From the NCBI GenBank assembly GCA_006384855.1, contig VCJN01001848.1, forward strand, positions 1 to 64,000: a stretch of DNA of 64,000 nt, in the 5' to 3' direction. The position numbers and the translations under genes are program-made. The notes beneath the pieces were generated by a model. It did no database searches and had not been told where the DNA came from. It was given only the letters and a program-made list of their open reading frames with translations. This DNA is from Tetraselmis striata. Its lineage: Eukaryota > Chlorophyta > Chlorodendrophyceae > Chlorodendrales > Chlorodendraceae. Of the stretch, positions 880-58,552 are shown in pieces; positions within the stretch are counted from its first letter, which is position 1, and each line of letters starts with the position of its first letter.

Positions 880-1546
880 CTTTTGCCAACTACCGGCCGG
901 GTGAACTCGCGAGACAACGCGACGAGGAGGAAGATCGCAAGCGTGCACATGCGCAGTGCAAAGCCAATGCGGCGGCTGGTGATGCATCAGTGTGTCGCCG
1001 CAACGGCAAGTGGGAACCAGCCACTGACTTTCGACGCAGTGCTTTTGAGGCAGACATCAGGGAGCAAGCACTGCGGCTGTCCAAAGGGTCTGGGACCCGA
1101 CGCTGCCTGGAGCAGCAGGCGGAAGTCGCCATCAAGGGCATTTTGCCCTTCAGCCCACGGGGGCTGAGGCGAAGGAGCAGCCGGACACTGCTCGGCTCGA
1201 CACCATCACGTGCGACTTGCACGCCAACAACATCATGTTGCAGTGCGAGACCATTTCAGACGGTGGCAGCAGCCACACGCGCTTGAACGCGTCTGCGATG
1301 GAGCCAAGCGCGGCGGAGGCCGTGGTAGAGGGCACTAGAGGGTGGATGGACGTTGACATGCATGGTGGTTTTGGTGCTCGCCACTGGCAAGCGCTCATGC
1401 GACCAACAATGACGATTGCGGGACGGCGTGGTCTTCACGCTTCCGGACCCCGTCACGTCAATCATGGCAGCTCATGACGAACCGCGCGTGTACGCGAACG
1501 AAGGCGAGGCACCGAGCTTGCTGCTCCGCTTGGATATGTGGCACTA
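880..1546 (+). pseudogene. decayed protein-coding remnant, family unknown
   Basis: Three plus-strand frames read in succession like one protein broken by frameshifts. The first is a charged helical stretch (about 895-1150, with LARQRDEEEDRKRAHAQ). The second contains DTITCDLHANNIMLQCETI (about 1198-1255). The third contains TLPDPVTSIMAAHDEPRVYA and ends at a stop near 1546. The host genes in the window keep clean frames with introns, so an old mobile-element ORF is the likeliest origin. The family was not recognised, and low-complexity coincidence cannot be excluded. Confidence 0.25.
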
Positions 1547-1689
1547 AAACGAAACGCCGGGCATTGAGCCAAGAGACCATGGTTCGATTACTTCTAGTGC
1601 AACATGTCCAACCGGAGCATTCTTGAGCAATATATGTGGTACTCACACGAGGTGGGTAGGTCAGGTGGTCAGGGTATGGAGACCCTACC

Positions 1690-1990
1690 ACCCCGCGGCC
1701 CTAGATGAGAGAGATCCTAGGGTGTGTTAGGGTTCGGTCGAGCCCTACACGCGGCACGGCACCCCACGCGGTGGCAGCTGCGGTCGCGTGAGGCTACGGC
1801 CGCGTGAGGCCCTAGAAAGAAGGCTAGGGCCTCCGGGGCCCTAGCGTGTGGAGTTGTGACGTCACAAAAACCTAAGATAGCATAAGGAGGTGATTGAAGG
1901 TTTTCCCCCCCGGCGTGGGAGTTTTAACACACACGCTAGGGCCCGGAGGCCATGGCCTTCATGCTAGGGCCTCGCGCGGCCCTAGTCTCA
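1690..1990. repeat. CCCTAG/CTAGGG-rich region with inverted repeat
   Basis: The hexamers CCCTAG and CTAGGG recur about ten times in 300 bp. An inverted repeat pairs 1824-1850 with about 1929-1955 (GGGCCTCCGG...CTAGCGTGTG against CACACGCTAGGGCCCGGAGG, one base shorter in the right arm). The loop is about 80 bp and AT-richer. No gene is visible. It could be the end of an unrecognised element or a structured regulatory segment. Confidence 0.5.
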
Positions 1991-2425
1991 CGCGACGGCG
2001 ACACATGTAGCGAAGGCCCCGGCCGAAAAGACCGCCAAGGCGCCGCGTAAGGACACCCCACCAGACACTACCAACAAGGGCGACCCATATATTACAAACG
2101 TAGACATCCATACGTGCCCAATTAAGATGCGAGCTTGTTGGAGCCGCGAACATACCCCGTTCAGTATCGATTGCCGCGGATATTCGGCGGTAAGGGCGGG
2201 AGAGTAGGCGCTTGCGCGACCGCCGGCGAGGCGGTCGGTAAGCTTGCACAGCCCCATTTGCTGCCCGAGGCACCGCGACTTCGCCGAAAGGCTTAAAGAA
2301 GCCCTGATTGCAGCAAGCGGGCAGGGAGGTTCTGGGGTTTGCATGCAGGGGGGCAAGCGCGGAGAGGGTGATGTGGCGGCCGGATACAGGAAGAGCCTAT
2401 AAAGCAAAGTTGGCCCAATCGCATT

Positions 2426-3095
2426 TTGATCGAAGGCCGCCGCGGCGATATTCGGTTAGAGAGTATTAACACCGCTATGGATTTCAGGCTCCACGCCCGT
2501 AGCCTCAACACCCGGCGGCAGAAGGGATTGCTACCCAAGTGCCTAAGCGAGCTCGCTCGACCACGTGCTCAGAGGAGGAGCCACTTGGCGCATGGGATCT
2601 TAAACATGTGCCAAAAGACGAGCGCAGACACGCGTCGGGGCCCGCGGCATCGAAAGCAGTCAACGCATATTTCGCCACGACGCGACGGTCGCGTTGTTAC
2701 CAACCTACCTCACTCCGTTACCGACCCTGTGAGCAACAGTGCCTTCCTCAACGAGTGCCAACGGGCTTTTATCCTGCGCGCCGAGACGACAAACGCCCTC
2801 GCCGGCTTCGATGGCGAGCTCGTGCGCCGCATGGACGATTCATTCGCCGACGCGTCTCAGATTCCTTTCTCGTCCTAGGTCGTATGTGATTGTTCGTCGG
2901 ATATACGGGAATATCAGCGGCACTACCGACCTTGTTTCAAGGCGAGTTTATTTGTGTTTCTGCAAGGCCGCAAGACTACCGGTGCCAAGTCTCCGAGTCG
3001 AGGGAAGCAAGGGTCGGGAGGTGGCTGAAAGATAACGACGCCAACATGGAATTGTACCCGGGCATGCAACGCCTGTACTCCGCCGTCATCGGTTA
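2426..3095 (+). pseudogene. possible decayed ORF, unknown
   Basis: A 150-codon plus-strand frame ends at 2878 with a natural-looking stretch (SNSAFLNECQRAFILRAETT). It is followed in another frame by about 50 residues ending at 3095. Composition is protein-like but no family is recognised. It may be the edge of the sequence into which the first CACTA transposon inserted. Confidence 0.2.
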
Positions 3096-3144
3096 GGTTT
3101 CGGCGGCTTTGGACCTGACGCAACATTGGAGGCCACTACAACGA

Positions 3145-3166
3145 CACTGTGAGATTCAGATGTGAC
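3145..3166 (+). repeat. left terminal inverted repeat, CACTA copy 1
   Basis: 22 bp, exact reverse complement of 11006-11027. It is preceded by target duplication CGA. Confidence 0.92.
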
Positions 3167-3379
3167 GTAAATGTGCCCTACTGGTGACGAACGACGACAT
3201 ACGGGGACGATACGGGACGGACGAGGGACGTGGATTTCATACCCAGTAGCGACGACTATCGCGCGCGACCTGTAAAGTACTATATGAATTTCTCGTTTCC
3301 ATAATTTCATCAAATTGATATGCGCACGCGGGCTCGCGTGTCGCCCTCCGACGCGGAGCACCCGGGCTAAGTACAGGCG

Positions 3380-3475
3380 GATGTACGCACTCATTGCACA
3401 TCGCCGCACATCGCTGACCGCACATCGCTGACCGCTGACCCCGCGGTGTGCCGCGATGTGCGGCACGACGGGCGG
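3380..3475 (+). repeat. subterminal short repeats of CACTA copy 1
   Basis: CGCACATCGC/GCACATCGCTGACC motifs recur in direct order and then inverted (GCGATGTGCGGC). Clustered subterminal motifs of this kind are where CACTA transposases bind in characterised elements; binding here is inferred. Confidence 0.6.
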
Positions 3476-3754
3476 AGGTGTGGGCGGATGTAGGTGGTAC
3501 GGTAGGTGGTAGGCGGTAGGTGGTGTTCGTAGGTGCGCGTTTTAATGCAGCCGCCCTAACTGCTGATGATTGTGTAACGCCCCAGCACGCGCATGAAGTA
3601 TGGGGTCGCCTCACGGTCACCGCCGCTCACCGTTGAATCAAGCGCGGACAGCCGCGCACTCGCATCTGTGTTGCCTGCCGGTGGTGGGTTACATCCACCC
3701 CAACTCTCAACCCCCCCCCCCCCCCCCCCCCGCCCCTCGCGCGCGGCAGCAGGC

Positions 3755-5878
3755 ATGCCGGCAAAGGGATGGATAGCGAGTGTGTCGAAGGATGGCGTGT
3801 ACTCATGCAAGCACTGCCGGGGCAACGTGACGGGCACTTGTGAGAAGATGGCGCGAGAGCGGCACTTCCTAAAATTCCCGAAGTGTAGCCACTCGTTGAA
3901 GCGTGCGGCAAAGTTGCGCCGCAAGGCCGCCTTATCACAAGCAGCAGCAGCAGGGGCGGCAGCAGCAGCAACAACAACAACAGGGGCGGCAGCAGGAGTA
4001 GCTGCAGCCGTCGGAAACGGCCCGCCGGCGCCGGTCTCGGACGACGGCGGCTCGAAGGTGGACGATGTGATGGGCGTGGGGGAGGACCCCGTTGGCGAAG
4101 ACGGTATGGACATCGACGCGCCTGCGTGGCCGCCGGCGGGCGTGGAACCCGCGATGAGGGCGTGATATGGAAAGGCGATTCCGGCGACTTCTACATGAAG
4201 GTCATCGCCAAGAAGTTCCGGGGAGTATGGCACTACGGCGTGATAACCGGCGTCGTTACCGAGTGGGTGTTGGAGGACTACGGCGGGGCGACCCAGTGGC
4301 GCGCTGTTTTCGAGGACGGGGGCATTGTGGGCCTTCTGCGTTCAGAGGTGAGTGGGCCCGGCCTGCGTGCTGGTGGCACCACTCAACTGCGGTTGTATGG
4401 AATCACACGCACCCGCCCGGTCGGCGTGGCAGATTGTGGAGGCTATGACGGCTGCCCAGGAGCACCCCCCTGTGGATGCGGACGGGGAGGCTCGCTTGGT
4501 AACCGTCCATGAAGGCGATGACTTGTCCAGTGAATCACGCACCTTGCCCGGCGTGCGGTCAACACAACCCGGCTGGCGGAGGCCAAGCAGAACACTGGCT
4601 GCCATGGCGTGTGCCATGTGCATGTGGTCCGGGGCTATGTCAGCATGGTCAACCTCTTCCCCCTCGCGCCGTTCCACCTGTTTTTTTTTGGCTTGGGAAG
4701 GGACTTCTGGAGGAAATTTGTCACCGTGCAGGCCACATTGGATTCCGAGCTATGAAGCAGGAAGACCGGCGCCAGGCTTTAGTCCCGATACCCAGCAACT
4801 TTGAACGCGGGTTGCGCCCTTCGTTTGCAGTGTCCAAGAATCGAAAGGTAAACCCCTCCCCCCCCCCCCCCCCCCGGGCGTGGGCGTGGGCGTGGGCGTG
4901 ACGGCATTCCCCTCCATGACTGCAGGGTCAGGCAAGGTGACGGTGCAGCCCGGCTGGGTCATGGAGGACTGCTTGCACCACATGGAAACGTTTTCCATTC
5001 TTAACGCCGGTCCGCTCCTCGAGGAGGCCCGGGTGAAGGCGATCATGCCCGAGAAGGAGCTCGCGTCCCCAGCGGTGGTGCGTTCGGTGTCACGACTGGC
5101 GGTGCTTGGGCACATGTACAAGCGCCTGCAAGGAGCTGCGTGGTTCGTCACGCGGTGGGGGTTGCAGAATGTGGTGACGGAGGAGGACGGCCCCGAGCGC
5201 AAGGCGCAGGTGGACGCGCTCACTAGGGAGGGGAGGACTCGATACCCAGCGCGGCGCCAAGGCGCGGCGGCCGGGGCAGCGCGGCGCCAAGGCGCGGCGG
5301 CCGGGGCAGCGCGGCGCCAAGGCGCGGCGGCCGGGGCAGCGCGGCGCCAAGGCGCGGCGGCCGGGGCAGCGCGGCGCCAAGGCGCGGCGGCCGGGGCAGC
5401 GCGGCGCCAAGGCGCGGCGGCCGGGGCAGCGCGGCGCCAAGGCGCGGCGGCCGGGGCAGCGCGGCGCCAAGGCGCGGCGGCCGGGGCAGCGCGGCGCCAA
5501 GGCGCGGCGGCCGGGGCAGCGCGGCGCCAAGGCGCGGCGGCCGGGGCAGCGCGGCGCCAACGCGAGTGGGATGGGCGGGGCAGCGCGGCGCCAAGGCGCG
5601 GCGGCCGGGGCAGCGCGGCGCCAAGGCGCGGCGGCCGGGGCAGCGCGGCGCCAAGGCGCGGCGGCCGGGGCAGCGCGGCGCCAACGCGCGGCGGCCGGGG
5701 CAGCGCGGCGCCAAGACAGCGCATACAGCGGAATCGGCGGAAAGGGATGCATTACAAGTTGTGGACGGCAGGCGCTGAAAACTATGCGGTCATGCCGCAA
5801 CAACCCCAGCACTGGCTTCTGGATACCTCTGATCTGGCTGGCGGCGGCGGGCTGCGGGATGCAGGGCCGCATGACTGA
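3755..5878 (+). pseudogene. CACTA transposase-like gene, copy 1
   Basis: The gene starts at ATG 3755 (MPAKGWIASVSKDG). The first segment (to ~4165) has a BED-like finger with Cys at CKHC, a following His and Cys/His at KCSH, then an Ala-rich and an acidic stretch. From ~4158 to 4347 comes a Tudor-like segment (AKKFRGVWHYGVITG, then VFEDG) ending at a good GTGAGT donor. Exon-like segments follow at 4433 onwards and about 4560-4847 (PFHLFFFGLGRDFW; GTAAAC donor followed by poly-C), and from 4926 after a CTGCAG acceptor (GWVMEDCLHHMETFSI). These resemble the middle of large DDE transposases (CACTA or KDZ type), though no catalytic triad could be assigned. The frame is not continuous. One base is missing near 4730 relative to copy 2, so this copy is probably inactive. 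Confidence 0.5.
5248..5714 (+). repeat. 30 bp tandem repeat inside CACTA gene
   Basis: Ten near-perfect 30 bp units are followed by a divergent segment (CGAGTGGGATGGGCGGGGCA, also found at about 6313 in the same element) and about four more units. In the gene's frame each unit encodes a ten-residue block (ARRQGAAAGA), so length changes keep the frame. Copy 2 has only about six units. Confidence 0.92.
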
Positions 5879-6487
5879 GGTGGCGGTGCTGGTGAGCTCG
5901 GAGAGTCTGCATGCGGCGGAGGCGGCGCAGCCGCATAGGCACTAGACAATGCTCTGAAGCGAGCCCCAATTGTCTGCCCAGCGCCTGCCCCAATGTAACG
6001 CACCAGCTTGGCAGCAATTGGCAGCTCTTTTGCCCCCCCTCCACCCCACAGACACACTACCAATACCAGTTTCTCATCCCGGCGGGCAGTTGATGCGTAT
6101 ACCCAGGCTTGTGCGTCCGCGGTGCGGGGGGGGGGGGGGGGGGGGGGGGGGAATCACTATAGCTAAGCTAGTGATGTGAGATATGAGTGCAGCAACAGAT
6201 ATTGTGCAAGATATAATACGATGGCATGCAAGCGGGTCCCCGCTCTTCCACAATCATTGGCCCTGCTCCCTCTTGCCCCGCCCCCGGTGCCCTTTAGCTG
6301 CTCTCAGCATCCCGAGTGGGATGGGCGGGGCAGCGGTTGCTACCGAGTGAGGCGTAGCATCGTTTGCAGTAGCAACGCAGCCTTTCCGGTTGCATAGTGT
6401 GACACCGCTTGGATGTAACCCAGCAGTACGCGCAAAGTGCAAGTGTTACACGTCCGTGTGCCCCACCCAATGACATTGCGCCCGACC

Positions 6488-7294
6488 TCACTGACGGCAT
6501 GTCTCGCTCTCCTTCAGCTCCTGGGCCGTCCGCCGCCTCACCCTGCGCACCCTACCAGCCGCGCGTGCCTTCTCGGAAGCCTCACACACGGCGGCGCGAG
6601 TCGCGTCGTGGAACGCGTCCCTGACATGGCGGAACTCCGCCCTCACCGTGGCCGTGGTCGGGCAGAGGACTGCCCGCTGATGGGTCGCCATGCATGGGTA
6701 CTTGGGGCCGCACAAAGCCGGGGTGCCGTCGCAGCAACACTCCCAGTCCGTCCGTTGGCCGCAGTCCACGCATGACGGGCGTCCGGCCAGGACACGCACA
6801 TGATAGTGCATGTGGCCGCCTCCCGCCACTGCTCGTAGTGCTCCGGTCAACATGGCGACGAGCAAGTCGGCATGTCCCGCAGGTGGCTGCGGGGCGGGTG
6901 GCGCGAGCGCAGCCTCGCTCGCCTCGACAACCCCCTCAGCCCGATCAGTCGCCTCGACCACGGCCTCCTCCGCCTCCTGACGCGGCGCACCAGGCGCATC
7001 ATCGTCGCCTGGCAGGGCGTCCCCCCCCGCAACGGCGCCGTCGGCGGTGGCCGACGCCGTCGTGGCGGGGTGTTGTGAGGAGGTGGCCCTAGACATAGGT
7101 GGGGCCGGCACCGCCATGTGTTGCTCCACATGCGGTGCGGTTCCTGACGCGACAGCTCCGTCGCACCAGTACCGGCGCCGGCACCCCACGCCTGCTGGGA
7201 TTACCACCAACCGGCATGTTTCCTTTGGGAGGCGGTTCATCCGCGTCGGAGGTGAGCGGCGGTGCCTGTGTGGGTGTGAATACTGCCCGGCCAT
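6488..7294 (-). CDS. Cys/His-rich CACTA-borne protein, copy 1
   Basis: Minus-strand frame of up to 268 codons; the true start may be an internal ATG such as the one before SRATSSQHP. The N-terminal half is Ala/acid-rich. The C-terminal half has a Cys pattern (CVDCGQRTDWECCCDGTP, then LCGPKYPC and a His) that resembles the zinc-ribbon tail of piggyBac-type transposases. Downstream is a basic tail (RVRRVRRRT). It is conserved in copy 2 at 54117-54812 with small in-frame differences, which argues for a real product. An accessory DNA-binding protein of the transposon is the inference; the family assignment is tentative. Confidence 0.5.
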   Translation of the reverse strand: MAGQYSHPHRHRRSPPTRMNRLPKETCRLVVIPAGVGCRRRYWCDGAVASGTAPHVEQHMAVPAPPMSRATSSQHPATTASATADGAVAGGDALPGDDDAPGAPRQEAEEAVVEATDRAEGVVEASEAALAPPAPQPPAGHADLLVAMLTGALRAVAGGGHMHYHVRVLAGRPSCVDCGQRTDWECCCDGTPALCGPKYPCMATHQRAVLCPTTATVRAEFRHVRDAFHDATRAAVCEASEKARAAGRVRRVRRRTAQELKESETCRQ

Positions 7295-7425
7295 TAGGGC
7301 TCCCGCCGCCTGCCGCTCCGCCGACCCAAGCCGCGGCGTGTGCTGCGCCCCGCATAGTCGCCTCGAATATAATATACATGACGCGGGGACGGGGGGGGGG
7401 GGGGGGGGGATTCGTGCGTTTCGTA

Positions 7426-7727
7426 TGTCGGCGGAAAGGCGTGCGAAGCTGCGGCTGGCGAAGGTGGTGGAAATAAGCGTGGCGGCGTCGGCGGCGTATT
7501 ACCGTGCGTGCATGCGTGCGCAACCCCGCGGCAGCAAGCGCCGGACTCGGCGTGTGCCGGCGGCAGAGCTGCGAAGCCATGGACACGGTACGGGATGCCA
7601 AGTCTGGCTAAGCAACTGCCGAGGCTGGCGGCTTAACCCCCATGTCCGGCGGTTAAGGGACGGAAAGTGCGTAGAAGTTGATCGGCAAAGCGGGCATATA
7701 AGCCTGGCTGTGCTAGGTTCCTATTAA
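7426..7727 (+). CDS. small basic ORF of CACTA element, copy 1
   Basis: 100 codons from MSAERRAKLRLAK, ending before 7728. It is rich in Arg/Lys (GSKRRTRRVPAAE) with one Trp-Leu-Ser-Asn-Cys segment. Copy 2 keeps the frame at 55042-55343 with few changes. It sits just downstream of a poly-G tract that varies in length between copies. Function unknown; it could be one exon of a longer spliced gene. Confidence 0.35.
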
Positions 7728-8159
7728 GTAATGGCGGTTTGTGCTAAGTAATTCGTAGGGGTGGACCATGCAGCGCAGGTAGGGGGCGGTATAAATGAGG
7801 CCGGGCACATATACTGCTCCACGAAACGACACTGTCGCACGTGTAGTTGAATAGACGCCCCCCCCCCCCCCCCCCCCCCCGCCGGGTCGGCCCGCCGGGT
7901 CGGCCCGCCGACCCGCCACGGCATGTAATATCTGTCATGCATCGCCGGGGTATGTGTGAGTGGATGCCCCGCCGCCACACACCCCCCCCCCCACCCCCCC
8001 CCCCCCCCCCCCCCATTTACACTTGTGCACTCATTAAGTTTGGGCTGGTTTCGGAGCAGTACATGTACGTATGTATATACATACAATGGAACGTAGGACC
8101 TGCGCGGAAAGAGGCGGGGCTGGCGGAGTGCGTTGGGGGTGCGTAGAGTAGCGTGTTGG

Positions 8160-9250
8160 TGAGATTCGGGGTGCATCGGACGCCGGATGCCCATCCACCC
8201 AGCGTAAAAGACGCGTACGTAATATTCACACTATATATATTCACACGAAAATGTGTGAAAACCGGACATACCGTGCCGGATGGGTGGGAATACGGCGTCC
8301 GATGCAGCCAAAACCCCAGCACCACGCTATTCCATGCACCGCCAATGCACTCCGCCAGCACCGCCTCATTCTCTGTCGATTTCGAAAACGCCTTCACATT
8401 ATCCACCGCTAATTGCAATTGCCACCGTGTAATGTTGTCACGATGTGCGCACACAACAACACTTACTACCGGTTCCGACGCGGATGGAGGCGAGGCTTGC
8501 GGAGTGCGTTGGGGGTGCGTAGAGTAGCGTGCTGCAAATAATTGGGGTGCATCGGACGCCGGATGCCCATCCACCCGGCGTAAAAGACGCGTAATATTCA
8601 CACTTTATTAACACACAAATGTGTGAAAACCGGACATTCCGTGCCGGATGGGTGGGAATACGGTGTCCGATGCAGCCAAAACCCCAGCACCACGCTATTC
8701 TATGCACCGCCAATGCACTCCGCCAGCACCGCCTCATTCTCTGTCGATTTCGAAAACGCCTTCACATTATCCACCGCTAATTGCAATTGCCACCGTGTAA
8801 TATGTTGTCACGATGTGCGCACACAACAACACTTACTACCGGTTCCGACGCGGATGGAGGCGAGGCTTGCGGAGTGCGTTGGGGGTGCGTAGAGTAGCGT
8901 GCTGCAAATAATTGGGGTGCATCGGACGCCGGATGCCCATCCACCCGGCGTAAAAGACGCGTAATATTCACACTTTATTAACACACAAATGTGTAAAAAC
9001 CGGACATTCCGTGCCGGATGGGTGGAAATACGGCGTCCGATGCAGCCAAAACCCCAGGGACACGCTATTCTATGCACCGCCAATGCACTCCGCCAGCACC
9101 GCCTCATTCTTTGTCGATTTCGAAAACGCCTTCACATTATCCACCGCTAATAATTGCAATTGCCACCGTGTAATGTTGTCACGATGTGCGCACACAACAC
9201 TTACTACCGGTTCCGACGCGGATGGAGGCGAGGCTTGCGGAGTGCACTGG
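8160..9250. repeat. ~360 bp tandem units with internal hairpins, CACTA copy 1
   Basis: Three units start near 8168, 8543 and 8903. Each carries GCATCGGACGCCGGATGCCC, followed about 100 bp later by an inverted match (ATACGGCGTCCGATGC), so every unit can fold into a stem. Repeated ATG-containing frames here are by-products of the array. The same array occurs in copy 2 at 55770-56870. Confidence 0.85.
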
Positions 9251-9359
9251 CGGTGCACAGACTAGCGGGAGACTAGATCCATTGTCGCTTATTTACAAGC
9301 ACGGGCGGTGCTGCCAGACCTGATCGTCTACGGCCGATATAATATTCACACTAAATTAA

Positions 9360-9425
9360 CATCGGTGCACACCGCCGCACACCGCCGCACACCGCCGCAC
9401 ACCGCCGCACACCGCTGCGCGCGCA
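9360..9425 (+). repeat. CACCGCCGCA short tandem repeat
   Basis: Four to five head-to-tail copies of a 10 bp motif. Copy 2 has about three. It may serve as an internal protein-binding cluster. Confidence 0.7.
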
Positions 9426-9711
9426 CATTCGTCGCACACATTATCCCGGATTCACTCGCCGTATCCATTACGCCGTGCTACTTCAACAATAAACATTGCG
9501 AAATTACACCGACACAATGCCGCACCGACTAGCTCTTGACAATACGTGCATATAAATAGTAGTGGCGCGCTGCTCCTCGCCTCCGATGTGTCGTTGACTG
9601 CTGCGGAAGGCGGTCGTCGACTGGGTGTTAGTTTCTCCACCTCGGCCGCCCCCCCCCCCCCCCCCCCCCCCCCCGCGCCCCCCCCCCCCCCCCCTTCACC
9701 GCTCACAGCGC

Positions 9712-10302
9712 CATGGCCGACCTCGCCCCCCCGGGCAAAAGTGGGCGGCGAGCCTTGTTGTCTCGCGTGTCCGCGCCGCCGGCATCGAGGAGGACGAGAA
9801 AGACATGAGGAAACGCGTGACAAGGTGGGCGCGCAACAAAACACTCCATCCTCCACATTAGCACGCACCCACTCGTGGCTAACTTGTGCCGCGCGCAGGT
9901 TCGTCCGGGAGCGCCGTTAAGGCCCACCTCAACGCCAAGGCTTCCACAGTGCCAGCGGCGCAACTCGTGGTGGCCGAGGAGGCCGCATCCTCAGCCGCTT
10001 AAAGGCGAAACGATTGTGGCTTGTTGTGGGTGTCTGGGCACAGGGGGCGTCCCGACGCGAAGGTAAGGAAGCTCATGGCGGCGTCGTCGACGGCACAGCC
10101 TCCCGGGGTGGTGAAGACACTGACGGATGACAAGAAGCGGAAGAGGCCAGTGAAGAAACGCCGAGGTAAGAAACTGACGGTCGCGGAGTCGGAGGCGGAG
10201 TCGGAGGCGCAGGCGGAGGCGGAGGCGGAGGCGGAGGCGGAGGCAGCGAGATCGTCGAAGCGGAGGGTCCCGCGGGCACGCAAGAACAAGAACAAGCAGT
10301 AG
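9712..10302 (+). pseudogene. Lys-rich CACTA ORF, copy 1
   Basis: ATG at 9712 opens a short exon-like frame. A second segment follows a GCGCAG acceptor at about 9899 (FVRERR...). The last segment, 10021-10302, encodes a basic C-terminus with KKRKRPVKKRRGKK and an Ala-Glu repeat, ending ARKNKNKQ. The Lys/Arg clusters look like nuclear localisation signals. Copy 1 has one extra T near 9918 that breaks the second segment, while copy 2 (57283-57857) reads through. Copy 1 also has two more Ala-Glu units. Possible second transposon protein; no domain recognised. Confidence 0.35.
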
Positions 10303-11005
10303 CCCCCGCCCCCTTACCCCCCCCCCCCCCCCCCAGGCGGGAGCGGCTGGCGGCGAGGGGGGGCGGGGGGGGGCGGGGCGGGCGTGGTCCCCCCCGCCCC
10401 CGCACCCCCCCCCCCCCCCCCCCCCCCGGGGCCACATTCCCCGATGGCGGCTGTCGCGAATATTGTAATTCAAACATTCTTCGGCAAACCGCTGCCTGCC
10501 CCCGCCCTCCCCCTCGCGAATATTTATGTAACGTGAGCACTCTTTGGCAAAACATGGCAGCCAAACCGCCCATCTGATGACCTTTGATCGGACGGCTGGC
10601 AGGCCCGTTCAGCAGTACTAGCTATAATGTACACAAAATTCCCCACTTTGGCCAAAAAGTACGGCTGAGATTTACGCTCCCATGTACTAATAGTCGTAGT
10701 TATCCACAGGACCACTGTCCATCGTGCCCGGGTACCGGGTACCGGCTACTAGATACCCGGTACCGGCTCAATAAATATATCGCGTACTACCCGGTACTGC
10801 ACGGACAACCTTGTACCTTGTACGTCAGTGCCATGTAACATTTTACCGGGCTCGTACGACTACCAGAATGATGACAAAAAGGATTTATCGCCCGCCGGCA
10901 ATAACGCCGGATGTACTCGCACGTAACTGGATGGACGTGCCGCCACCAGCAGCAGCCTTCACGGATAAATAATAGTCGCTAGTAGTAGTGCTTCGTCACC
11001 TGTAT

Positions 11006-11027
11006 GTCACATCTGAATCTCACAGTG
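11006..11027 (-). repeat. right terminal inverted repeat, CACTA copy 1
   Basis: Exact reverse complement of 3145-3166. It is followed by target duplication CGA (11028-11030). Confidence 0.92.
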
Positions 11028-11309
11028 CGAGCGGTGGTTTTTACGCCAGTCTATTCGCATGAAGGCTTGCCGGCAATCAACAACACCGCGGGCACGATCA
11101 ACATAATGTTTCCTCTCGACTATATCATGAGCCACTGCCCTTGATCCGGAACGCTCCGCACGTCTCGCTTCAGGACGCCCTTCACTGGGCGCGCCCGGAC
11201 CTTGTGCCCCCCTCCCACTTCGGGTTCCTCCTGGCCGATACCCCCTTTTCAATATATTCTGAAATAAAGGTGGGGATTGATGATGTGTATGCCTGCCCTT
11301 TAGACACAA

Positions 11310-12707: not shown

Positions 12708-12952
12708 TAAGCCATCGTTGCTCCAACATAATTTGCACCACAGGCCGGCGCAATATGGAAGGCATACCCGTTAAAACGTTTGAACATCAATCGTCGCTTG
12801 CACCAGCGGCCACCTATGAAGGGGAGGGCTGCTACATCTCCAAGCCCGACTTTCGCCACAAATGCAACACTTACATGGGCACTCTCGCATGCACGACAGT
12901 AACACGCCGTCGCACTAGTCGAAAAACCTCCTATCGGGTGAAAATATTATGG

Positions 12953-15900
12953 CATAGCCAAGCATGTGTTGGACAAGACAAACGCGATGCAGCATGTCGT
13001 GGCTATTCGTGATTGCCACTTGATGCCGTTGCGCGTCGTGGATCTGTAAACCGTAACGGGCCGCACACTTGTATCCAAGCCCCAAGCGCGGCACGCGCTA
13101 TGCCGGAGCCGTGCCAATACACACCACTTAGACGCGCGTATCGGCTAGCATCTATCGGACGTGCCAACCGGGCTGCAACATGCCGCACCTCGTCCAGATC
13201 AGTACTTGTAGCAATTTCACGGGGCGGCGCCGTAAAGTCATTACCCATGTAGCTCCGAAACCATTCTGAGAAACCGCGGCACGGGGTTTACATGATGCCT
13301 TAGATAGCGCGCAGTGGGGGCGCGCTTGTGGGCTAGCATGTATCGGACGAGGCAAACACGTTGAATCATGCCGCCGCACTCCAGATGGCGGCCTGGAGGC
13401 GTTCCGCGGGGTGGCCGATGAATCGTGTTCCGCGCGTACCTGTGTGCCCAGCCATGCTCGGCACACGAGCTGCACCGCAGCGTACGAAATGCGCGCCAAC
13501 GCGACACGCGTATAGCCAAGCACGTGTTGGACGAGGCAAGCGCGATGCAACAAGCCACGGCTATTCATGGTGACCGCTTGATGTTGTTGCGCGGTGTGGA
13601 TTAATTAGTAAACCGTGTCGCTACGCATACTGATGTAAATGCTCCCGAATCACGGCACGCGCTGTGCCGGAGCCGTACCAATGCGCGCCGTTGAGACGCG
13701 CGTATCGGCTAGCATCTATCGGACGAGGCAAACACGCGGTAATATGCCGCCCCTCGTCCGGATGAGCACTTGCAGCCATTTCACGGAGCGGCGCCGTAAA
13801 CTGTATAACTCGGTCATACCAATGTGGCCCACGCACGGCACGGGCTACACGGGACCATTCATAACGCGCGCCGAGGAGACGTGCTGACATGCAAGCAGTT
13901 GTTGGACGGGTCAAACGCGCTGCAACATGCCGCGGCTACTCGTGATAACAGCATGGCGCCGTTGCGCAGTGTAGATGTGTGAACCGTTACGACCCACCGC
14001 AGGCCTGATTGATGTATACATGCCTCGAGCACGGCGCGCGCTATGCCGGAGCCGTACCAATGCGCGCCGCTGAGACGCGCATATGGCATACCATCTATCG
14101 GACGAGCCTAACACGCTGAACCATGCCGCACCTCGTCCAGAATGGTACTTGTAGCCGTTCCACGGGATGGCGCCTTCAAGTCATAACCCATGTAGCTCCG
14201 AAACCATTCTAATAAACCGCAACAAGCGCTGTACCGGAGGCCTCACATGGCGCGCAATGGGGGCGCGCTTGTGGGCTAGCATCTGTTTGACAAGGCAAAC
14301 ACGTTGCATCATGCCACCGCACTCCGGATTCCCGCTTGGAGCCATTGCGCGGGGTGGCTGATAAACCATTGCGCCCGTATCTATGTGCCCATGAACGGCA
14401 CGGGCTACACAGTGTCGTACAAAATGCGCGCCGAGGAGACGTGGGCTCAGGCAAGCACGTGTTGGACGAGACAAACGTGATGCAACACGCGACGGCTATT
14501 CATGATGATCGCCTGGTGCCGTTGCGCGGTGTGGATTAGTAAACCGTGTCGCGAGGCATAATTGATGTATATGTGCCCCGAGCACGGCGTGCACGATGCC
14601 GAAGCCTTACCAATGCGCGCCGCTGGACGCACGTAGCGGCTAGCATCTATCTGACGCGGCAAACACGCGGCAACATGCCGCACATCGCCCGGATGAGCAC
14701 TTGCAGCCATGCATTTCACGGCGCAGCTTCGTAAACCGTAGATACCGGTCATACCATGCAATGTGGCCCACTCACGGCACGGGCTACACCGGAGCGTTCA
14801 TAACGCACGCCGAGGAGACGCGCGTACATGCAAGCACGTGTTGGACGAGGCAACCGCGATGAAACATGCCGCGGCTGCTCGTGATGACCGCATGGTGCCG
14901 TTGCGCGGTGTGGATCTGTGAACCTTAACGCGCCGCACATTTATCTATGCCCCAAGCACGGCACGCGCTATGCCGGAGCCCTGCCAATGTGCGCCACCGA
15001 AACGCGCATGTCGGCTATAATCTGTTGGACGAGGGATACACGCTGCAACATGCCGCACCTCGTCCGGATGAGCACTTGTAACCGTTGCACGGCGCGGCGC
15101 CGTAAGGTCATGGCTCATGTAGCTCCGAAACCATTCTGAGAAACCACGGCACGCGCAATACCGGAGGCTTCACACAGCGCCCAATGGGGACGCGCAAGTG
15201 GGTTAGCATCTGTCGGATAAGGTAACACGCTGCAACATGCCAAACCTCGTACGGCGGTGTACATGTAGTAGCGGTACGGTTTCACGGCGCGGCGCCGTAG
15301 TAAACCGTATAGCGGTTATACCCATGTGGCCCATGCACGGCACGGGCTACACCGGAGCGTTCATAACGCGCGCCGATGAGACGCGCGCATAGGCAAGCAA
15401 GTTATTCTGGACGAGAGAATCGCGATGCAACATGACGCGGCTACGCGTGATAACGGCCTGGCACCGTTCCGCGGTGTAGATGTGTGAACCCTTACGATCC
15501 GCATACCTGATGAATGTATGACCTAAGCACGGCGCGCGCGCGCTATGCCGGAGCCGTACGAATGCGCGGTGCGGAGGGGCGCATATCGCCTAGCATCTAT
15601 CGGACGAGCCTAACACGCTGCAACGTGCCGCACCTCTGCCAGATAAGTACTCAGCCATTTCATGGCGCGGCGCCGTGCACCACATAGCTCCGAAACCATT
15701 CTGAGAAACCGCGGAACGCGGCTCATCGGAGGCCTCACATAGGGCGCAATGGGGGCGCGCTTGTGGGCTAGCATCTGTCGGACGAGGCAAACACGATGCA
15801 TCATGCCGCCGCACTCCGGATGGCGGCTTGGAGCCGTTCCGCGGGCGGGGTGGCCCGTAAATCGCGTTCCGCGCGTACCCGTGTGCCCATGCTCGGCACG

Positions 15901-17275
15901 CGAGCTACACCGCGGCGTACGAAATGCGCCCGAGGAAATGCGCGTATAGCCAAGCATGTGTTGGACGAGACAAACGCGCAGCAACATGTCGTGGCTATTC
16001 GTGAGGGCCGCTTGATGCCGTTGCGCGTTGTGGATCTGTAAACCGTAACATGTTGCATACATGTATACAAGCCCCAAGCGCGGCACGCGCTATGCCGGAG
16101 CCGTGCCAATACACGCCACTTAGACGCGCGTATCGGCTAGCATCTACCGGACGCGCCAACCGGGCTGCAACATGACGCACCTCGTCCAGATCAGTACTTG
16201 TAGCAATTTCACGGGGCGGCGCCGTAAAGTCATTACCCATGTAGCTCCGAAACCATTCTGAGAAACCGCGGCACGGGGTTTACCGGATGCCTTAGATAGC
16301 GCGCAGTGGGGGCGCGCTTGTGGGCTGCATCTATCGGACGAGGCAAACACGTTGCATCATGCCGCCGCACTCCAGATGGCGGCTTGGAGCCGTTCCGCGG
16401 GGTGGCCGATGGATCGTGTTCCGCGCATACCTGTGTGCCCATGCTCGGCACACGAGCTGCACCGCAGCGTACGAAATGCGCGCCAAGGAGACGCGCGTAT
16501 AGCTAAGCACGTGTTGGACGAGGCAAGCGCGATGCAACAAGCCACGGATGTTCATGGTGACGACCGCCTGGTGTCGTTGCGCGGTGTGGATTAATTAGTA
16601 AACCTTGACGCGACGCATATCTTATGTATTTGCCCCAAGCACGGCGCGCGCGATGCCGCAGCCGTATCACTGCGCGCCGTTGAGACGCGCGTATCGGTTA
16701 GTATCTATCGGACGAAGCAAACACGCGGTAACATGCCGCACCTCGCCCGGATGAGCATTTGCAGCCGTTTCACGACTGGGCGCCGTAAAACGTCTAAAGC
16801 GGTCATACCAATGCGGCCCACGCACGGCTCGGGCTATACACCGGAGCGTTCACAACGCGCGCCGAGGAGACGGGGGCATAAGCAAGCAAGTGTTGGACGG
16901 GTCAAACGCGACGCAACATCCCGCGGATATCCGTGATGACGGCCTGATGCCGTTGCGCATCGTAGTTGTGTGAACCCTTACGACCCGAATACCTGATACA
17001 TATATGCCCCAAGCATGGCACGCGCTATGTTGGAGCCGCACCAATGCGCGCCGCTGAGGCGAGCAAATCGGCTGTAATCTGTTTTGCGAGTCTATCACGC
17101 TGCAACATGCCGCACCTCGTCCAGATGAGTACTTGTAGTCGTTCCATGGGGCGGCGCCGTAAAGTCGTTTCCCATGTAGCTCCAAAACCAGTATGAGAAA
17201 CCGCGGCACGCCGTTTACCGGAGCCTAACATAACTTGCAATGGAGGCACGCATGTGGACTAGCATCTGTCGGAAG
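12953..17275 (+). repeat. ~187 bp satellite with pentameric higher-order repeat, forward arm
   Basis: The anchor TAGCATCTATCGGACG and close variants recur at about 13147, 13336, 13711, 14088, 14277, 14640, 15025, 15206, 15594, 15769, 16138, 16326, 16699, 17077 and 17263. Spacings are about 187 or 375 bp. The 375 bp gaps hold a sister monomer with GTGTTGGACGAG at the same place. Five monomer types alternate, giving a higher-order unit of about 940 bp (13147 to 14088 to 15025; 16138 to 17077), with shorter deleted units between. About 23 monomers are present. All ORFs here are by-products. Confidence 0.9.
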
Positions 17276-19658
17276 TATAGGCAAGTACGTACGTCTCCTC
17301 GGCGCGTGTTAAGAACGCTCCGGTGTAGCCCGTGCCGTGGGTGGACCACATTGCATGGTATGACCGATATATAATGTTTACGGCGCCGCGCCGTGAAACT
17401 GTACCGCTACAAGTACTCCGCCAGGCGAGATGCGGCATGTCGCCCCGTGTTTGCCTCGTCCGATAGATGTTAGCCGCTACGCGCGCCCAGCGGCGCGCTT
17501 GGTACGGCTCGTCCATCGCGCGTGCCGTGCTTGGAACACATATACATAAGGTATGCGTCGCGTCACGCTTTTAACTATTATACACCGCGTAATAACGGGG
17601 CTAGGCGGTCATCATGAATAGCCGTGGCGTGTTGCCTCGCGTTCCCCTCGTCCAATACGTGCTTTCCTACAAGCGAGTCTCATCGGCGCGCATTTCGTAC
17701 GCTGCGGTGTAGCCCGTGCCAAGCATGGGCACATGTAGGTACGGGCGCAATACGGTTTACCGGCCAACCCGCGCAACGGCTCCAAGCGGGCCTCCGGAGT
17801 AGTGCGGCGGCATGATGCAACGTGTTTGCCTCGTCTGATGGATGCCTGCTCACATGCGCGCCCCCATTGCGCGCTATGTGAAGCCTCAGGTAAACCGCGC
17901 GATGCGGTTTCTCAGAATGGTTTCGGAGCGACATTGGCTATGACTACACGGCGCCGCCCCGTGGAACGGCTGCAAGTACTCATCAGGACGAGGTGCGGCA
18001 TGTTGCAGCGTGATAGACTCGTTCGATAGGTGCCAGCTGATTTGCTCGCCTCCGCGGCGCGCATTTGTACGGCCTCAACATAGTGCGTTCCGTGCTTGGG
18101 GCATATATACATCAGATATTCGGGTAGTAAGGGTTCACACATCTACAACGCGCAACGGCATCCGGCTGTCATCACGAGTAGCCGCGGGATGTTGCATCGC
18201 GTTTGCCTTGTCCAACACCTGCTTGCTTATGCCCGCGTCCCCTTGGCGCGCGTTATGAACGCTCCGGTGTAGCCCGTGCCGTGCGTGGGCCACACTGGAA
18301 TGACCGATATACACGGTTTACGGCGCCGCGTCGTGAAACGGCTGCAAGTGCTCATCCGGGCGAGGTGCGGCATGTTGCCGCGTGTTTGCCTCGTCCGATA
18401 GATAGATACTAACCGATACGCGCGCGCGTCCAGCGGCGCGCAGTGATACGGCTCCGGCATCGCGCGCGCCGTGCTTGGGACACATATACATCGATATGCG
18501 TCGCGTCACGCTTAAGTAATCCACACCGCGCAACGACACCAAGCGGTCACCATGAATAGCCACGACGTGTTGCATCACGTTTGTCTCGTCCAACACGTGC
18601 GTGGCAATATGCGCGTTCCCTCGGCGCGCATTTTGGTACGACAATGTGTAGCTCGCGTGCCGTGCATGGGCACATGGGTACGGGCGCAGTACGGGTTATG
18701 GGCCACTCCGCGGAACGGCTCCAAACGGGGATCCGGAGTGCGGTGGCATGATGGAACGTGTTTTCCTCATTTTACAGATCCTACTCCACATGCGCCCCCA
18801 TTGTCCGCTATGTGAGGCTCCGGTAAACCGCGTGTTGCGGTTTATTATCATGGTTTCGGAGCTACATGGGTTATTACTTTACAACGCCGCTCCGTGCAAC
18901 GGCTACAAGTACTCATCCGGCAGAGGTGCGGCATGTTTCAGCGTGTTTAACTCGTCCGATAGATGCTAGCCGATACGCGCGTCTGAACGGTAAACATTGG
19001 TACGGCTCCGCCGGCATAGCGCGTGTTGTGATTTGGGCATATATACATCAAGTATGCAGATATTGTAATGGTTCACTGACCTACACCGCGCAACGGCTCC
19101 ACGCGGTCATCACGAATAGCCGCGGCATGTTGCATCGCGTCGCCCCTGCGCCCTCCGCCCAACACTCCTTGGCGCGCGTTATTTATGAACGCTCCGGTGT
19201 AGCCTATGCAGTGCGTCGGCCGCATTGGTATGACCGCTACACGGTTTACGGCGTCGCATTGTGAAACCGTACCGCTTGAAGTACGCCGCCGGACGAGGTG
19301 CGGCATGTTGCCCCGTGTTTGCCTCGTCCGATAGATGCTAGTCGTTCTGCGCGAATCGGTGGCACGGCTCCGTCCGGCATAGCGCGCGCTATGCTTGAGG
19401 CATATATACAGGCATGCGGCGCGTGGCGGATTACACGGCTACACCGCGCAACGGCTCCATGCGGTACTCATGAATAGCCGCGGCATGTTGCATCGCGCTT
19501 CTTTCGTCCAACATGTGATAGCCTATACGCGCATCTCCTCAACGCGCTATATGGACGCTCCGGTGTAGCCCGTGCCGTGCGTGGGCCACATTGGTATGAC
19601 CGCTACACGGTTTGCGGCGCCGCGCTGTGAAGTGGCTACATGTGCTCATTCGGGCGAG
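17276..19658 (-). repeat. satellite, inverted arm
   Basis: Same monomers in reverse orientation, about 12-13 of them. The complementary anchor CTCGTCCGATAGATG lies at about 17457, 18391 and 19326 (934-935 bp apart), which confirms the same ~940 bp higher-order period. The switch of orientation falls at about 17276-17290, in the middle of a monomer. The array stops abruptly near 19658. Confidence 0.9.
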
Positions 19659-21400
19659 TGCGTAGTAGATGAGCGCGTAGTAAGATCATCAATGGACTCG
19701 AGGCAGCGAGGGAAATCATGATTACGCTCGAGGGTCGCGCGTCTTCGCCCACGGCCACTGCCACGACCGCAGCCACGACCACGGACATGCACACCTTCAA
19801 GTGTGTCACCAAGATGGAACGCAGGCACGCTTGCTAGGGCAGTGAGGCTCTAGATTGGCGGCAATCTATCGGCTTTCCGCCACGGTGCCGGAAAGTCCCC
19901 TCTGGCCGTGGAGGTGAGCCGCGCAGGCCATGCGACCCGCTCGTGCGGTGTTCACGACGTTGCCGTCTCCGGTTAGGAGGTCGACGCTCAGCGTGAACAA
20001 CCTCCACCTCGACGCCGTTGTCCACAAGTACAGCTACACATTAACGGCCACCACGGCTACGGCTTTTGCCATGGTCTTTGCCCCGGCCACGGCTGGAAGA
20101 AGTGCCACGGCCTCTGCGATGCGCCGACTCGCGGAGGTAGCCATCGTCAGTGAGGAAATCGGATCGATTTTGCCGGTTTCGACGCCCATGTCCTCGGGAG
20201 TGCATGGCACACCCCTCCTCCGGCTGCGGGGTCAAAGCAACATTCAAGTGCGCGGGCTTGCTTGTAGCGCGAGACGCGCGCGGCGATGGGTGCAGTCCCC
20301 CCGTTGTGCCTGCGAAACACCTATGTGTCGCGAAGAGTCCGCCAAAGGTACGGGTGCCTGCATTGTCTTTTCCCGGCGAAGGCCTTGCAATCACATCGCA
20401 GACCCGCTGCCGCCTCAAATCGGACTTGGCTCAGAGGTGCGCAATGCTCGTTTACATATTTCAGTGCACGGCATCGAGGAGGCACACGACCCTCCAAACT
20501 GTCAGTGTGGGTCTTGATGCGGGCGATAGTAACGTTCTCTTCCGAACGAATGTCGGCGTTAACGAAAATTAACCTCGAAACATCAGGTTAAGTCGCGAAC
20601 TGATCTTTGGGGTCCGCGCATGCCGCCATGGCTGCGTGGTTGTACTCCGAAAGCTCAAAAGCGAGTCTAGAATTGAAGTCACCCCCTGTGCATTTAAAGG
20701 CTCTACCCTGAGGCTCTAAAAGGGCGGGGAATGCCCTTTCGAGCATAATGTCAGTGGGCCGTCGGCGCTTCGAGAAATCCTCATTCTCCTTTGTCCATCT
20801 ATGCCCGCTCTCTCGGGGGTGGGTGTTGGCATGGCAACCCCCCCAGCCCCTAGCGGTGCAGTGCTATTTGAGTTTGTCACCGATGTACTCGTCTTCCATG
20901 AAGCCTGTAGCACGCGCCTCTCCACGGCGGCGCCACGCCACCATGAGCACGATCGCCACGGCCTGGGGCTTATTGAGCGTCGCGCACGCGTGAATGATGT
21001 CGACGCTTTCCGCGCAATACACGGAGTTCCATCTGTGGTTATCTAGCAACTTCTCAACGACGGGTCTGTCCCATGGACAAGAACTTCCATTTCAAGTGGA
21101 CGTAGCGGCTAACAAGCTGTCAAGGGCAAAGAAACATAGCAGGAGAAAATCAGCCCAGTTACCCGCAGCCACAATCGATACTCAACAATCAACAACTGGC
21201 AGTACCTTTGCATTTGGAAACGTAGTAGCTAGAGCTGCCCTCACGCCGGCCCTCCCCTGTCGCCGATAACCGCATGGGCCTCCAAGGGTAATCCGAAAAA
21301 GTCGGCAGAAGTGTTTTGCAAGCCGGAGAATACGGCCTCGAATAAAGCTGCGGCACTCTCCGACTTGGCGAAACAAAAACACGAACGAAGTCACGATGTT
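19659..21400. other. no confident gene
   Basis: The minus strand has Arg-Gly-rich frames (about 19650-19830 and 20041-20160, e.g. GRGCGRGSGRGRRR) and an unassigned 61-codon frame at 20864-21049 (IHACATLNKPQAVAIVLMVA). These may be element debris. No splice-consistent gene was assembled. Confidence 0.4.
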
Positions 21401-21441
21401 GTGTGTGTGTGTGTGTGTGTATGTGTGTGTGCGTGTATGTG

Positions 21442-21485
<44 letters not shown>

Positions 21486-21496
21486 TGCGTGTGTGC

Positions 21497-21536
<40 letters not shown>

Positions 21537-21540
21537 GTGC

Positions 21541-21626
<86 letters not shown>
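21401..21626 (+). repeat. (GT)n microsatellite, ~226 bp
   Basis: Almost pure GT dinucleotide with occasional GC or AT substitutions. Alternating purine-pyrimidine tracts of this length can adopt Z-DNA. Long Cys-Val or Thr-His frames here are artefacts. Confidence 0.97.
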
Positions 21627-21627
<1 letters not shown>

Positions 21628-21676
21628 GGGGGTGATTGGACTTCTCGATTCTTGTTTTTACGACAATGAGTAAAAG

Positions 21677-22216
21677 TCACTTGCTCAAGCTTTTTTTGTG
21701 GGTGCCATCCGTCATCAGGTGCAACGGCAAGCCCGACACTAATGCCTTTTGAAGGTTTCGAAGCAGCTCAAGACTTGAAAACGCGACCGCGAAAGCTTGC
21801 GGGTAGACCCCACCACGGAGCTCAAGCAGACTTGGAGGCTCGACGTCATCGAGGTAGTCAACCTCTGGCACCATGTGGGAATCCGCCCACTCTTGCAAGT
21901 CGTGGAAGCTCGACAGCTCCAACAGCCCCCGTTGCTCTGACATTACCGTCTCCTCCAAACGACGAACCCTTATGTTCACTTCTCTCGAGCTAGGCGGGAT
22001 TCCTGCATCCCGCAAGTCGTGCTCGGATAAATGTTGCATGGCCTTTCGGGGCGTCGACCCCTGATGAAGGAGAGGCAGAAGGGTCTTCATGAGACCCTGT
22101 AGTACACTGTTGTACTCACTGGGTGAAGGGCACGGAGGCGCCCAAGTGCTCAATGCCGTTGTGCCGAATTTCCCACAGCCGTGACTCGTCGTTGCACGCG
22201 ACCACGGGCGGGGCAT
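21677..22216 (-). pseudogene. transposase-like ORF fragment
   Basis: A 179-codon minus-strand frame, MPRPWSRATTSHGCG..., with a helical, acidic middle (DLRDAGIPPSSREVN; FHDLQEWADSHMVPEVDYLD). Near its end is LPLHLMTDGTHKKSL. A DGT(H/F)K motif after a hydrophobic strand is seen at the first catalytic Asp of Mutator-like transposases. The frame then stops and runs into the (GT)n tract, so the protein would be truncated there. The upstream 600 bp belong to repeat family R2, consistent with an element 5' region. Assignment is tentative. Confidence 0.35.
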
Positions 22217-22830
22217 CCATTATGCGCGTAATAACAAATGGCTAGGCAGCGGCCCACCAGGAGCGGAGGATTATGCGTGCGATAGCCAAGCGGCATCACC
22301 CCCATCTCAAGTCCTCCACGGGGTGGGCTCTGGTAACCCATGAGACCCGTGCCCGGCTGGCTGCGGTAGGGGGCTGAGCGGGGTGGCCGATTGTGGCGGT
22401 TCCTCGGATCATGCGACGACCGGGGAGCCCTACGTGTGGCAATTATACGAATATGATATACAACGAGTTAATAGTACAAGTACTGTGTATTCGAGTACTA
22501 GTACGATGTGTACCTGCGACTACGGGTATATGTACCGTATAATTACATGAGCTAGCAGCAAAAGGCGATATCAGGGAATCACCAAAAAAATGACAATGAG
22601 AAAGGTCCTCAATGCTGCCTTGTGGTACGAGCCGCCGCGGGCAGCATCCCTGTACGGGGGGCTGCTAAAAATCATGCATGTACGACATCGGCCTTGCGTC
22701 GGCCTCTACGAGATCCGCCTACGGGTTGGGAAGGGGGTCTATACGACTCGAGTGGGGGCAGCCTACCAGCGAGGGCTGTTCGGGATGAAACCGTGTTTTT
22801 GTGCTTCGGTGCGACCCGCCCGGTACGGGG
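22217..22830 (-). repeat. dispersed repeat R2, copy A
   Basis: Two blocks (about 22217-22440 and 22625-22830) match, in reverse complement, 41863-42080 and 41640-41830. Shared words include CGAACAGCCCTCGC, GGCCACCCCGCTCAG and TCCTCCGCTCC. The blocks keep their relative order, with different spacers between them. Copy A adjoins the transposase-like ORF at 21677-22216. Confidence 0.7.
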
Positions 22831-40842: not shown

Positions 40843-41656
40843 ATGCGCCAGGTCGAGGCCGCCATCGCCGCCGCCAACGCGGAGAAGACCGCCGCCGTCG
40901 AGGAGATCAACGCCATCATGGCCATACATGGCGCTAGACGCGCGCCCTGTGGACGCCGAGGCGCACCACCAACTGCTTCAAGACCGCGTCGCCAAGGCGG
41001 AGTCCGCCGTGCATGCGCACTTCGCGACGCCCGCCGCCTGTGTTCATGCCGCTAGCCAGCCAAACCACGCGCCCGCCGCTGCTACCGTTGCCGCTCCGCC
41101 TGCCAATTTTTGCCAATTCGCCAATTTCCTGCCAAGCGTGGTCCGGACGACAAGGCGCGTTCGTCGAAACCGTCAATAAGGCACCGAAAGGTACTAGCGG
41201 GATCACTTACATTTGGATGGACGCACTCACGGGGCCATATCCACGCCCGCCACGCCTACGAGGACTCGGTTATGCAAGCCAAGGTCGACGCCCGCCTACA
41301 TGCGCGCCCTTACCCCCTCGTTCGCGATTTCGTTGAGCGCCTCACCGATATGTCATGGGTAAGCCCGATAATCTAGACCCGACCTTACAGTAGTTGAGTC
41401 AATCGTTACCGCTACGTCCTCATTCGCCTCGCAGCACGACGACGACCTCGTCGTCGCCAACCACAAATTTGCGACCCACCGCTACGCGCAATTGCACATG
41501 GCCCACACCTACGCCAACCCTCGCCTAGTTTGGCAGTACCGAGTGAACGCCTCCCTGACGGACGACACAACGGATGACCCCGTCTCGGCCAAGGCCCTCA
41601 AGCTCGCAGAGAAGGGCGTCAAGCGCTTGACGGATATCGTACCGAGGTACAAGAAC
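40843..41656 (+). pseudogene. element-type coding remnant with one intron
   Basis: A helical N-terminal frame (MRQVEAAIAAANAEKTAAVE) shifts near 40925 into DARPVDAEAHHQLLQDRVAKAE. It shifts again near 41145 into a frame ending VERLTDMSW at 41357. A GTAAGC donor follows, with an acceptor at CTCGCAG before HDDDLVVANHKFATHRYAQ (about 41438). That last exon runs to VKRLTDIV near 41640, where repeat R2 begins. It reads like a Gag-type or accessory element protein disrupted by two frameshifts; no family recognised. Confidence 0.35.
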
Positions 41657-50904: not shown

Positions 50905-50926
50905 CACTGTGAGATTCAGATGTGAC
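50905..50926 (+). repeat. left terminal inverted repeat, CACTA copy 2
   Basis: 22 bp, identical to 3145-3166. Confidence 0.93.
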
Positions 50927-54812: not shown

Positions 54813-55041
54813 GCACGCCTGCTGGGCTTACCACCAACCGGCATGTTTCCTTTGGGAGGCGGTTCATCCGCGTCGGAGGTGAGCGGCGGTGCCTGTGTGG
54901 GTGTGGATACTGCCCGGCCATTAGGGCTCCCGCCGCCTGTCGCTCCGCCGACCCACGCCGCGGCGTGTGCTGCGCCCCGCATAGTCGCCTCGAATATAAT
55001 ATACATGACGCGGGGACGGGGGGGGATTCGTGCGTTTCGTA

Positions 55042-58530: not shown

Positions 58531-58552
58531 GTCACATCTGAATCTCACAGTG
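58531..58552 (-). repeat. right terminal inverted repeat, CACTA copy 2
   Basis: 22 bp, reverse complement of 50905-50926, followed by CAT duplication. Confidence 0.93.

Follow-up and report, generated by a model that had tools for sequence, protein, structure and literature searches.

The 187-bp array in the window

The window, by which we mean the whole 64,000-nucleotide stretch of Tetraselmis striata DNA that was analyzed (contig C1489 of an assembly of 224,097,584 bases in 2903 contigs), contains a tandem array at positions 12951 to 19662. A profile search of this array finds 36 monomers of ~187 bp that fall into five related types, A to E, while segmentation gives an alternative count of 35. 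A fuzzy 31-bp anchor occurs 33 times (+ strand copies to 17083, - strand copies from 17432), with a spacing of 176 to 196 bp except for three longer steps of 382, 349, and 372 bp. The + arm (12951 to 17280) is composed of 23 monomers in the order ABCED ABCED ABD ABC ABCED AB, and the inverted arm (17281 to 19662) is composed of 13 monomers that read DAD ABCED ABCED on the - strand. The cycle A-B-C-E-D is obeyed by 31 of 34 neighbor pairs, compared with a mean of 7.0 in shuffled orders, and 0 of 2000 shuffles reach 31; the type profiles used for this test were derived from the very same window monomers. Anchors, monomer alignment, profile search, and order test, which together define the two arms, bear out the preliminary description of ~187-bp monomers of five types in fixed order in both arms, of five-monomer units with a period near 940 bp, and of an inversion with its switch at ~17.28 kb. 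The bounds differ from the earlier ones (12953 to 19658) by only a few bases.

Copies in the window are diverged. With gaps counted, monomers of the same type are 64 to 96% identical (mean, 76 to 83%), types A and E, which are the closest pair, are 65 to 75% identical, and the other pairs of types are 41 to 70% identical. Within the + arm, monomers at a lag of 5 have a mean best ungapped identity of 57.5%, versus 44 to 53% for those at lags 1 to 4. The value is also raised at lags 8 and 11 (54.5 and 56.8%) but not at lag 10 (50.0%), because the register is interrupted by ABD and ABC, the two short units. The array is absent from the rows of a TRF run on the window, probably because its copies are too diverged. 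A coding array was ruled out, since the monomer length of 187 bp is not divisible by 3 and the open reading frames (ORFs) tested, which were 10 of the 13 window ORFs of at least 250 amino acids, have no Pfam match. The window has no Rfam match at gathering scores, and the array has no match in a plasmid collection.

The strand switch (17268 to 17281), directly beside which is a short palindromic sequence, TACGTACGTA, is also present in contigs C2347 and C2364, both of which represent the window locus and share its inversion. The + arm includes an internal duplication, in which the stretch from 12954 to 14286 is repeated at 15946 to 17269 with 86.6% identity over 1339 columns, at an offset of ~2990 bp (16 monomers). 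Short repeats of ~190 bp at window positions 22241 to 22434, 22633 to 22819, and 41637 to 42065 are shared with contigs C1756 and C2783, where they are close to 187-bp arrays.

Distribution and local homogeneity of the arrays

Monomers of this family are found on at least 44 contigs, some of which are allelic pairs, and contig C48 (see below) is a 45th. This tally is the sum of 26 contigs from a first look (27 of 179 candidates scored), 16 from the first 100 of 485 pattern matches (control, 0), and 2 more (26 of 191 candidates scored). In 16 fetched sequences, a set that leaves out C2364, C2347, C1584, C973, and C2511, which were taken as alleles, 400 monomers gave 180 pattern matches; at this rate, the 485 matches correspond to ~1080 monomers, which is ~0.2 Mb, or ~0.1% of the assembly. 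Most of the fetched arrays are ~1 to 7 kb long, and some lie in the middle of a contig (C1397 and C1967). In most copies the array is internal and on one strand, with the window and C1397 as exceptions. The A-B-C-E-D order is obeyed at 313 of 374 neighbor pairs from 15 loci.

Pooled same-type identity is 90 to 95% within loci versus 79 to 84% between loci. The within-locus means are dominated by C297 and C1348, which contribute most of the pairs, and most other loci also exceed the between-locus means. The exceptions are the window (76 to 83%), C1527 (63 to 83%), C1397 (82 to 88%), and the E monomers of C989 (82%). Units vary as well: C1348 has only a B-C-E unit of ~555 bp, C989 is mostly B-C-E, and the 18.9 kb of C297 are satellite from end to end with a seven-monomer unit; TRF reports periods of 1317 bp at 95, 99, and 89% on this contig, and also of ~1604 bp at 98, 97, and 85%. 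These unit variants and C297 indicate that arrays expand and change their unit after dispersal. Unequal exchange or gene conversion may then have contracted, expanded, and reunitized arrays locally, giving units of 3, 5, and 7 monomers.

Array-flanking modules and terminal inverted repeats

When the arrays are masked, the flanks of unrelated loci align with one another. Downstream of the array is a 3' module of ~5.1 kb (C2465 positions 3359 to 8485 versus C1511 positions 1510 to 6606, 77.6% identity with gaps). Six copies (C2465, C1511, C868, C352, C2360, and the window) are 81.7 to 85.8% identical outside gaps, apart from C868 and C352, which are 97.0% identical and may be one locus. Array and 3' module occur in this order and in a shared orientation in all 11 non-window loci where both are seen (C352, C868, C2465, C1399, C2360 with C1584, C1298, C1840, C1729, C48, C1527, and C1511), among which C1840 and C1729 are counted by one anchor match each and C1511 by an 86-bp monomer fragment. 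In all seven loci where the junction was read (C2465, C1511, C868, C352, C1527, C2360, and C48), it is at the identical place: the array ends where a C monomer ends, and just past the junction is the motif GAACATGCATC, which is intact in five of the seven and substituted in C1527 and C2360. C48 had been picked by its 3' module only, from which its array was predicted beforehand, and 801 bases fetched at the computed junction held C-A-B-C up to the canonical junction. A query with the 3' module has matches on 31 contigs, and an array or monomer fragment is seen on 14 of these; none of the others is among the array matches listed, for which 27 of 179 candidates were scored.

Upstream of the array, a 5' module is present in the same orientation in all four loci where both are seen (C2360 with C1584, C1145, C1967, and C1027), and this 5' region is ~2.5 kb long. 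The 3' module terminates in ...GTCCC, and an inverted copy of its terminus lies near position 3700 of contig C2360, so that C2360 has terminal inverted repeats (TIRs) at both ends that are alike at 41 of 45 bp. A 32-mer from the TIR, with up to 3 mismatches allowed, is found at 13 places in the assembly versus 0 for the reversed control. Other copies share the C2360 end sequence, and on C814 the 5' region comes immediately after the 5' TIR. With GG taken as the start of the TIR, the C2360 element, which is old and is the sole copy read with both ends, has the 3 bp CGC on either side as a candidate target-site duplication. In C2360, an LTR retrotransposon interrupts the 5' region; its two 410-bp LTRs are identical, and it comes with a 5-bp duplication (GCCGC) and a Ty3-type gag. 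A candidate element start at C2360 composite position 8358 was rejected, as it is the edge of this retrotransposon. A CTRR-type 3' end is a Helitron motif, and none was found in the 3' ends read; Helitrons and Helentrons have rolling-circle ends and no TIR, whereas here a clear TIR is present.

The ORFs tested, five from the 3' module and one from the 5' region, have no Pfam match and thus no match to a transposase family or reverse transcriptase, and no autonomous partner was found in the stretches fetched. Three comparisons of 3' modules were scanned for 3-base periodicity of substitutions, and two scan segments pass a chi-square of 8 (8.4 and 9.1), both of them from C1511 versus C868, where 14 segments were filled. 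Judged by its sequence, the 3' module is apparently noncoding. In the 5' region, no segment passes a chi-square of 2.6, and of 29 short indels, 11 have a length divisible by 3. At another site, a kinesin motor ORF (L043:2935-3903, - strand; E value, 4.4e-72) lies ~1.4 kb inward of a TIR of this family at C2800:12188-12219 and may be a host gene beside or inside an element.

Based on the monomer order, the fixed junction, the consistent orientation, the TIRs of C2360, the dispersal, and a homogeneity that is higher within most loci than between loci, all of which were observed directly, we consider it likely that the window block is an old, degenerate copy of an array that belongs to a family of TIR DNA transposons, which are seemingly nonautonomous. 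Pieced together from several copies, none of which was read intact, the element would consist of a TIR of ~45 to 60 bp, the ~2.5-kb 5' region, the A-B-C-E-D array, the 5.1-kb 3' module, and the partner TIR. A transposase acting in trans would have moved such elements and carried the pentamer array to many loci, and no host function would be needed. The window copy would then have been inverted in part, with one of the breakpoints falling within the array, and would have lost the 5' half of the element as well as both the initial 1.8 kb and the end of the 3' module. Flank alignment places a 3' module remnant at window positions 19674 to 22238 on the + strand (module positions ~+1808 to +4170), without the first 1.8 kb and without the TIR-bearing end. 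The inverted arm adjoins it at module position +1808, which is a noncanonical junction, and no terminal repeat was found at this copy. Module positions 1 to 1807 are absent between the arms and from the flanks searched, suggesting that at least one deletion accompanied the inversion.

Some arrays and modules do not fit this anatomy. None of the stretches fetched for the arrays on C1397, C1348, C2783, C1756, C989, and C297 contains a module. Over 3.7 kb, up to a point 0.1 kb before the end of the array, C2511 matches C1527 at 98.3% identity; the following 2978 bases lack a module, so that taking C2511 as a plain allele of C1527 was partly wrong. For the 5' module on C2106, the 763 bases read past its match contain no array, and the 5'-module contigs C814, C1009, C2579, and C2558 are not among the array matches listed. 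Thus, not every array can be placed in an element, and arrays without a module imply that the satellite is also maintained, or spreads, independently of the element. Such arrays would be expected if the satellite came first and was later captured by the transposon, with free arrays dispersed separately (e.g., as circles) at the loci without modules. This order of events is also consistent with the monomers having no clear similarity to the TIRs or modules: in 25 comparisons of possible monomer origin from them, none is clearly beyond shuffles, the best being type B versus the 3' module, which is reached by 1 of 40 shuffles (type C versus the 3' module, 3 of 40). However, at 11 loci the fixed junction and orientation link array and element, and since the flanks fetched were short, modules at the remaining arrays may be deleted or farther out, making prior existence of the satellite unlikely.

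The type consensuses can be aligned end to end and are best kept in their first ~40 bp, which are 72 to 80% alike across the five types, compared with 46 to 72% for the remainder; the sequences suggest that one ancestral monomer may lie behind all five. Conservation of this kind could be expected of a putative tandem array of promoters or binding sites that the element needs and that selection maintains, analogous to the tandem 5' monomers of some L1s or, alternatively, to the extra transposase sites in foldback elements. We give very little credence to such a role, since in 0 of 10 comparisons does a monomer resemble the TIRs beyond shuffles and columns 131 to 150 and 181 to 200 of the consensuses are likewise at 70 to 72%.

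Centromeres, known systems, and neighboring repeats

Primate alpha satellite consists of diverged, nucleosome-sized monomers in fixed multimonomer units that are homogenized unit by unit, with decayed older copies, and forms megabase arrays at centromeres. The algal array is like it in its diverged, nucleosome-sized monomers, fixed units, unit-by-unit homogenization, and decayed older copies and unlike it in that the arrays are kilobase sized, dispersed, and in many cases within a transposon. A centromere role had been inferred in the preliminary description, which named dispersal in small arrays as the observation that would speak against it. Dispersal in small arrays is what we find, at the level of contigs rather than of chromosome arms, and the role is not supported: the family is on at least 44 contigs in arrays of mostly ~1 to 7 kb, many of them built into a mobile element.

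It is nevertheless conceivable, if very unlikely, that the satellite is centromeric or pericentromeric, with long higher-order arrays marking the centromeres and the window representing a decayed edge. The 187-bp monomers form true higher-order units, as in centromeric satellites; C297 (18.9 kb) is wholly satellite, with a 1317-bp unit; and the array on C352 runs into the contig end while that on C2465, a contig of 592 kb, begins 0.5 kb short of the contig end, as expected of long arrays that failed to assemble. Histone-fold genes are present in the assembly, and a telomere pattern (TTTAGGG x4) is uninformative, with 3 matches versus 1 for the control. An rbcL gene on contig C1177 resembles green-type Rubisco most closely, with 1gk8 (Chlamydomonas) among its best PDB matches, in keeping with a green alga. 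Long arrays at about one block per chromosome were not found, with assembly gaps and contigs that are not assigned to chromosomes leaving some doubt. Against centromeric arrays stand the estimated total of ~1080 monomers, the mid-contig position of the arrays on C1397 and C1967, the spread over so many contigs, and the location of many of the arrays inside a transposon. Furthermore, other green algae are described as having transposon-made centromeres (PMC11005252, PMC8226300). Two Chlorella species are characterized as being without centromeric satellites (PMC11005252), and Zepp-type LINEs are reported at the centromeres of Coccomyxa and, as Zepp-like elements (ZeppL), of Chlamydomonas (PMC8226300). 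The present family is like Zepp and ZeppL, as described there, in that green-algal repeat clusters come from mobile elements, and differs in that it is a TIR element with 187-bp tandem repeats rather than LINEs clustered at centromeres (PMC8226300). Nor is a reverse transcriptase gene, as Zepp and ZeppL have, apparent here: the module ORFs tested have no Pfam match and the 3' module has little coding signal. There is also a small chance that the transposon seeds true satellites. In that case, long homogenized arrays of the C297 type would have grown beyond the element, would be truncated where contigs end, and would constitute centromeric or heterochromatic blocks of this alga, and the transition from TIR transposon to higher-order satellite would be caught in the act.

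Satellite arrays borne by transposons are already known in flies and mollusks. In Drosophila virilis, the foldback transposon Tetris carries ~220-bp internal tandem repeats (TIR-220) that are described as growing into kilobase-size satellite arrays (PMC4079207). Like Tetris, the algal family is apparently a nonautonomous DNA transposon with internal tandem repeats and a transposase that was not found (PMC4079207). The Tetris repeats are located inside its inverted repeats and have 37 bp in common with the terminal part (PMC4079207). Unlike Tetris as reported there, the alga has a single internal array between two dissimilar modules, a five-type higher-order unit, and no clear similarity to the TIR; repeats inside long inverted repeats that share terminal-domain sequence were not observed. 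In Crassostrea gigas, Cg_HINE elements have central arrays of monomers that are mostly 140 to 180 bp long and mostly number up to 5 (PMC7492417). They resemble the algal elements in being nonautonomous, with fixed flanks and dispersed satellite-like arrays, and differ in that Cg_HINE elements are Helentrons and the algal elements have TIRs (PMC7492417). The term "higher-order" is absent from the main text of the Cg_HINE report (PMC7492417).

The analysis corrects a tempting centromere reading, and the array is informative less for centromere biology than for the ways in which transposons can seed satellites. This genome allows the passage from element-internal repeat to free higher-order satellite to be followed locus by locus. 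Among the literature matches listed, Tetris and Cg_HINE are the nearest systems, and there is no green-algal case of a five-type higher-order unit in register within a TIR transposon whose copies extend from decayed arrays to a homogenized one of 18.9 kb; the one match listed for higher-order repeats together with TIRs and nonautonomous elements is a grasshopper study.

Elsewhere in the window, a CACTA-type transposon occupies positions 3145 to 11028, with the TIR CACTGTGAGATTCAGATGTGAC, a 3-bp duplication (CGA), and an empty site in allele C2347. A second copy at positions 50905 to 58553 (duplication, CAT) sits within a tandem array of 378-bp units that extends from 49559 to 50909 and resumes at 58553. 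On C1145 and C868, ends of this CACTA family directly adjoin monomers of the 187-bp family, in the case of C1145 within an E monomer (L022:7055, L035:1416). Three of the five CACTA copies seen abut tandem arrays and the other two are 0.9 to 1.9 kb away, a sample that is biased because the loci were fetched for their arrays. Inside the CACTA element itself is a tandem repeat of ~370 bp, near two nucleosome lengths, in ~3 copies (window positions 8103 to 9267 and 55712 to 56854).
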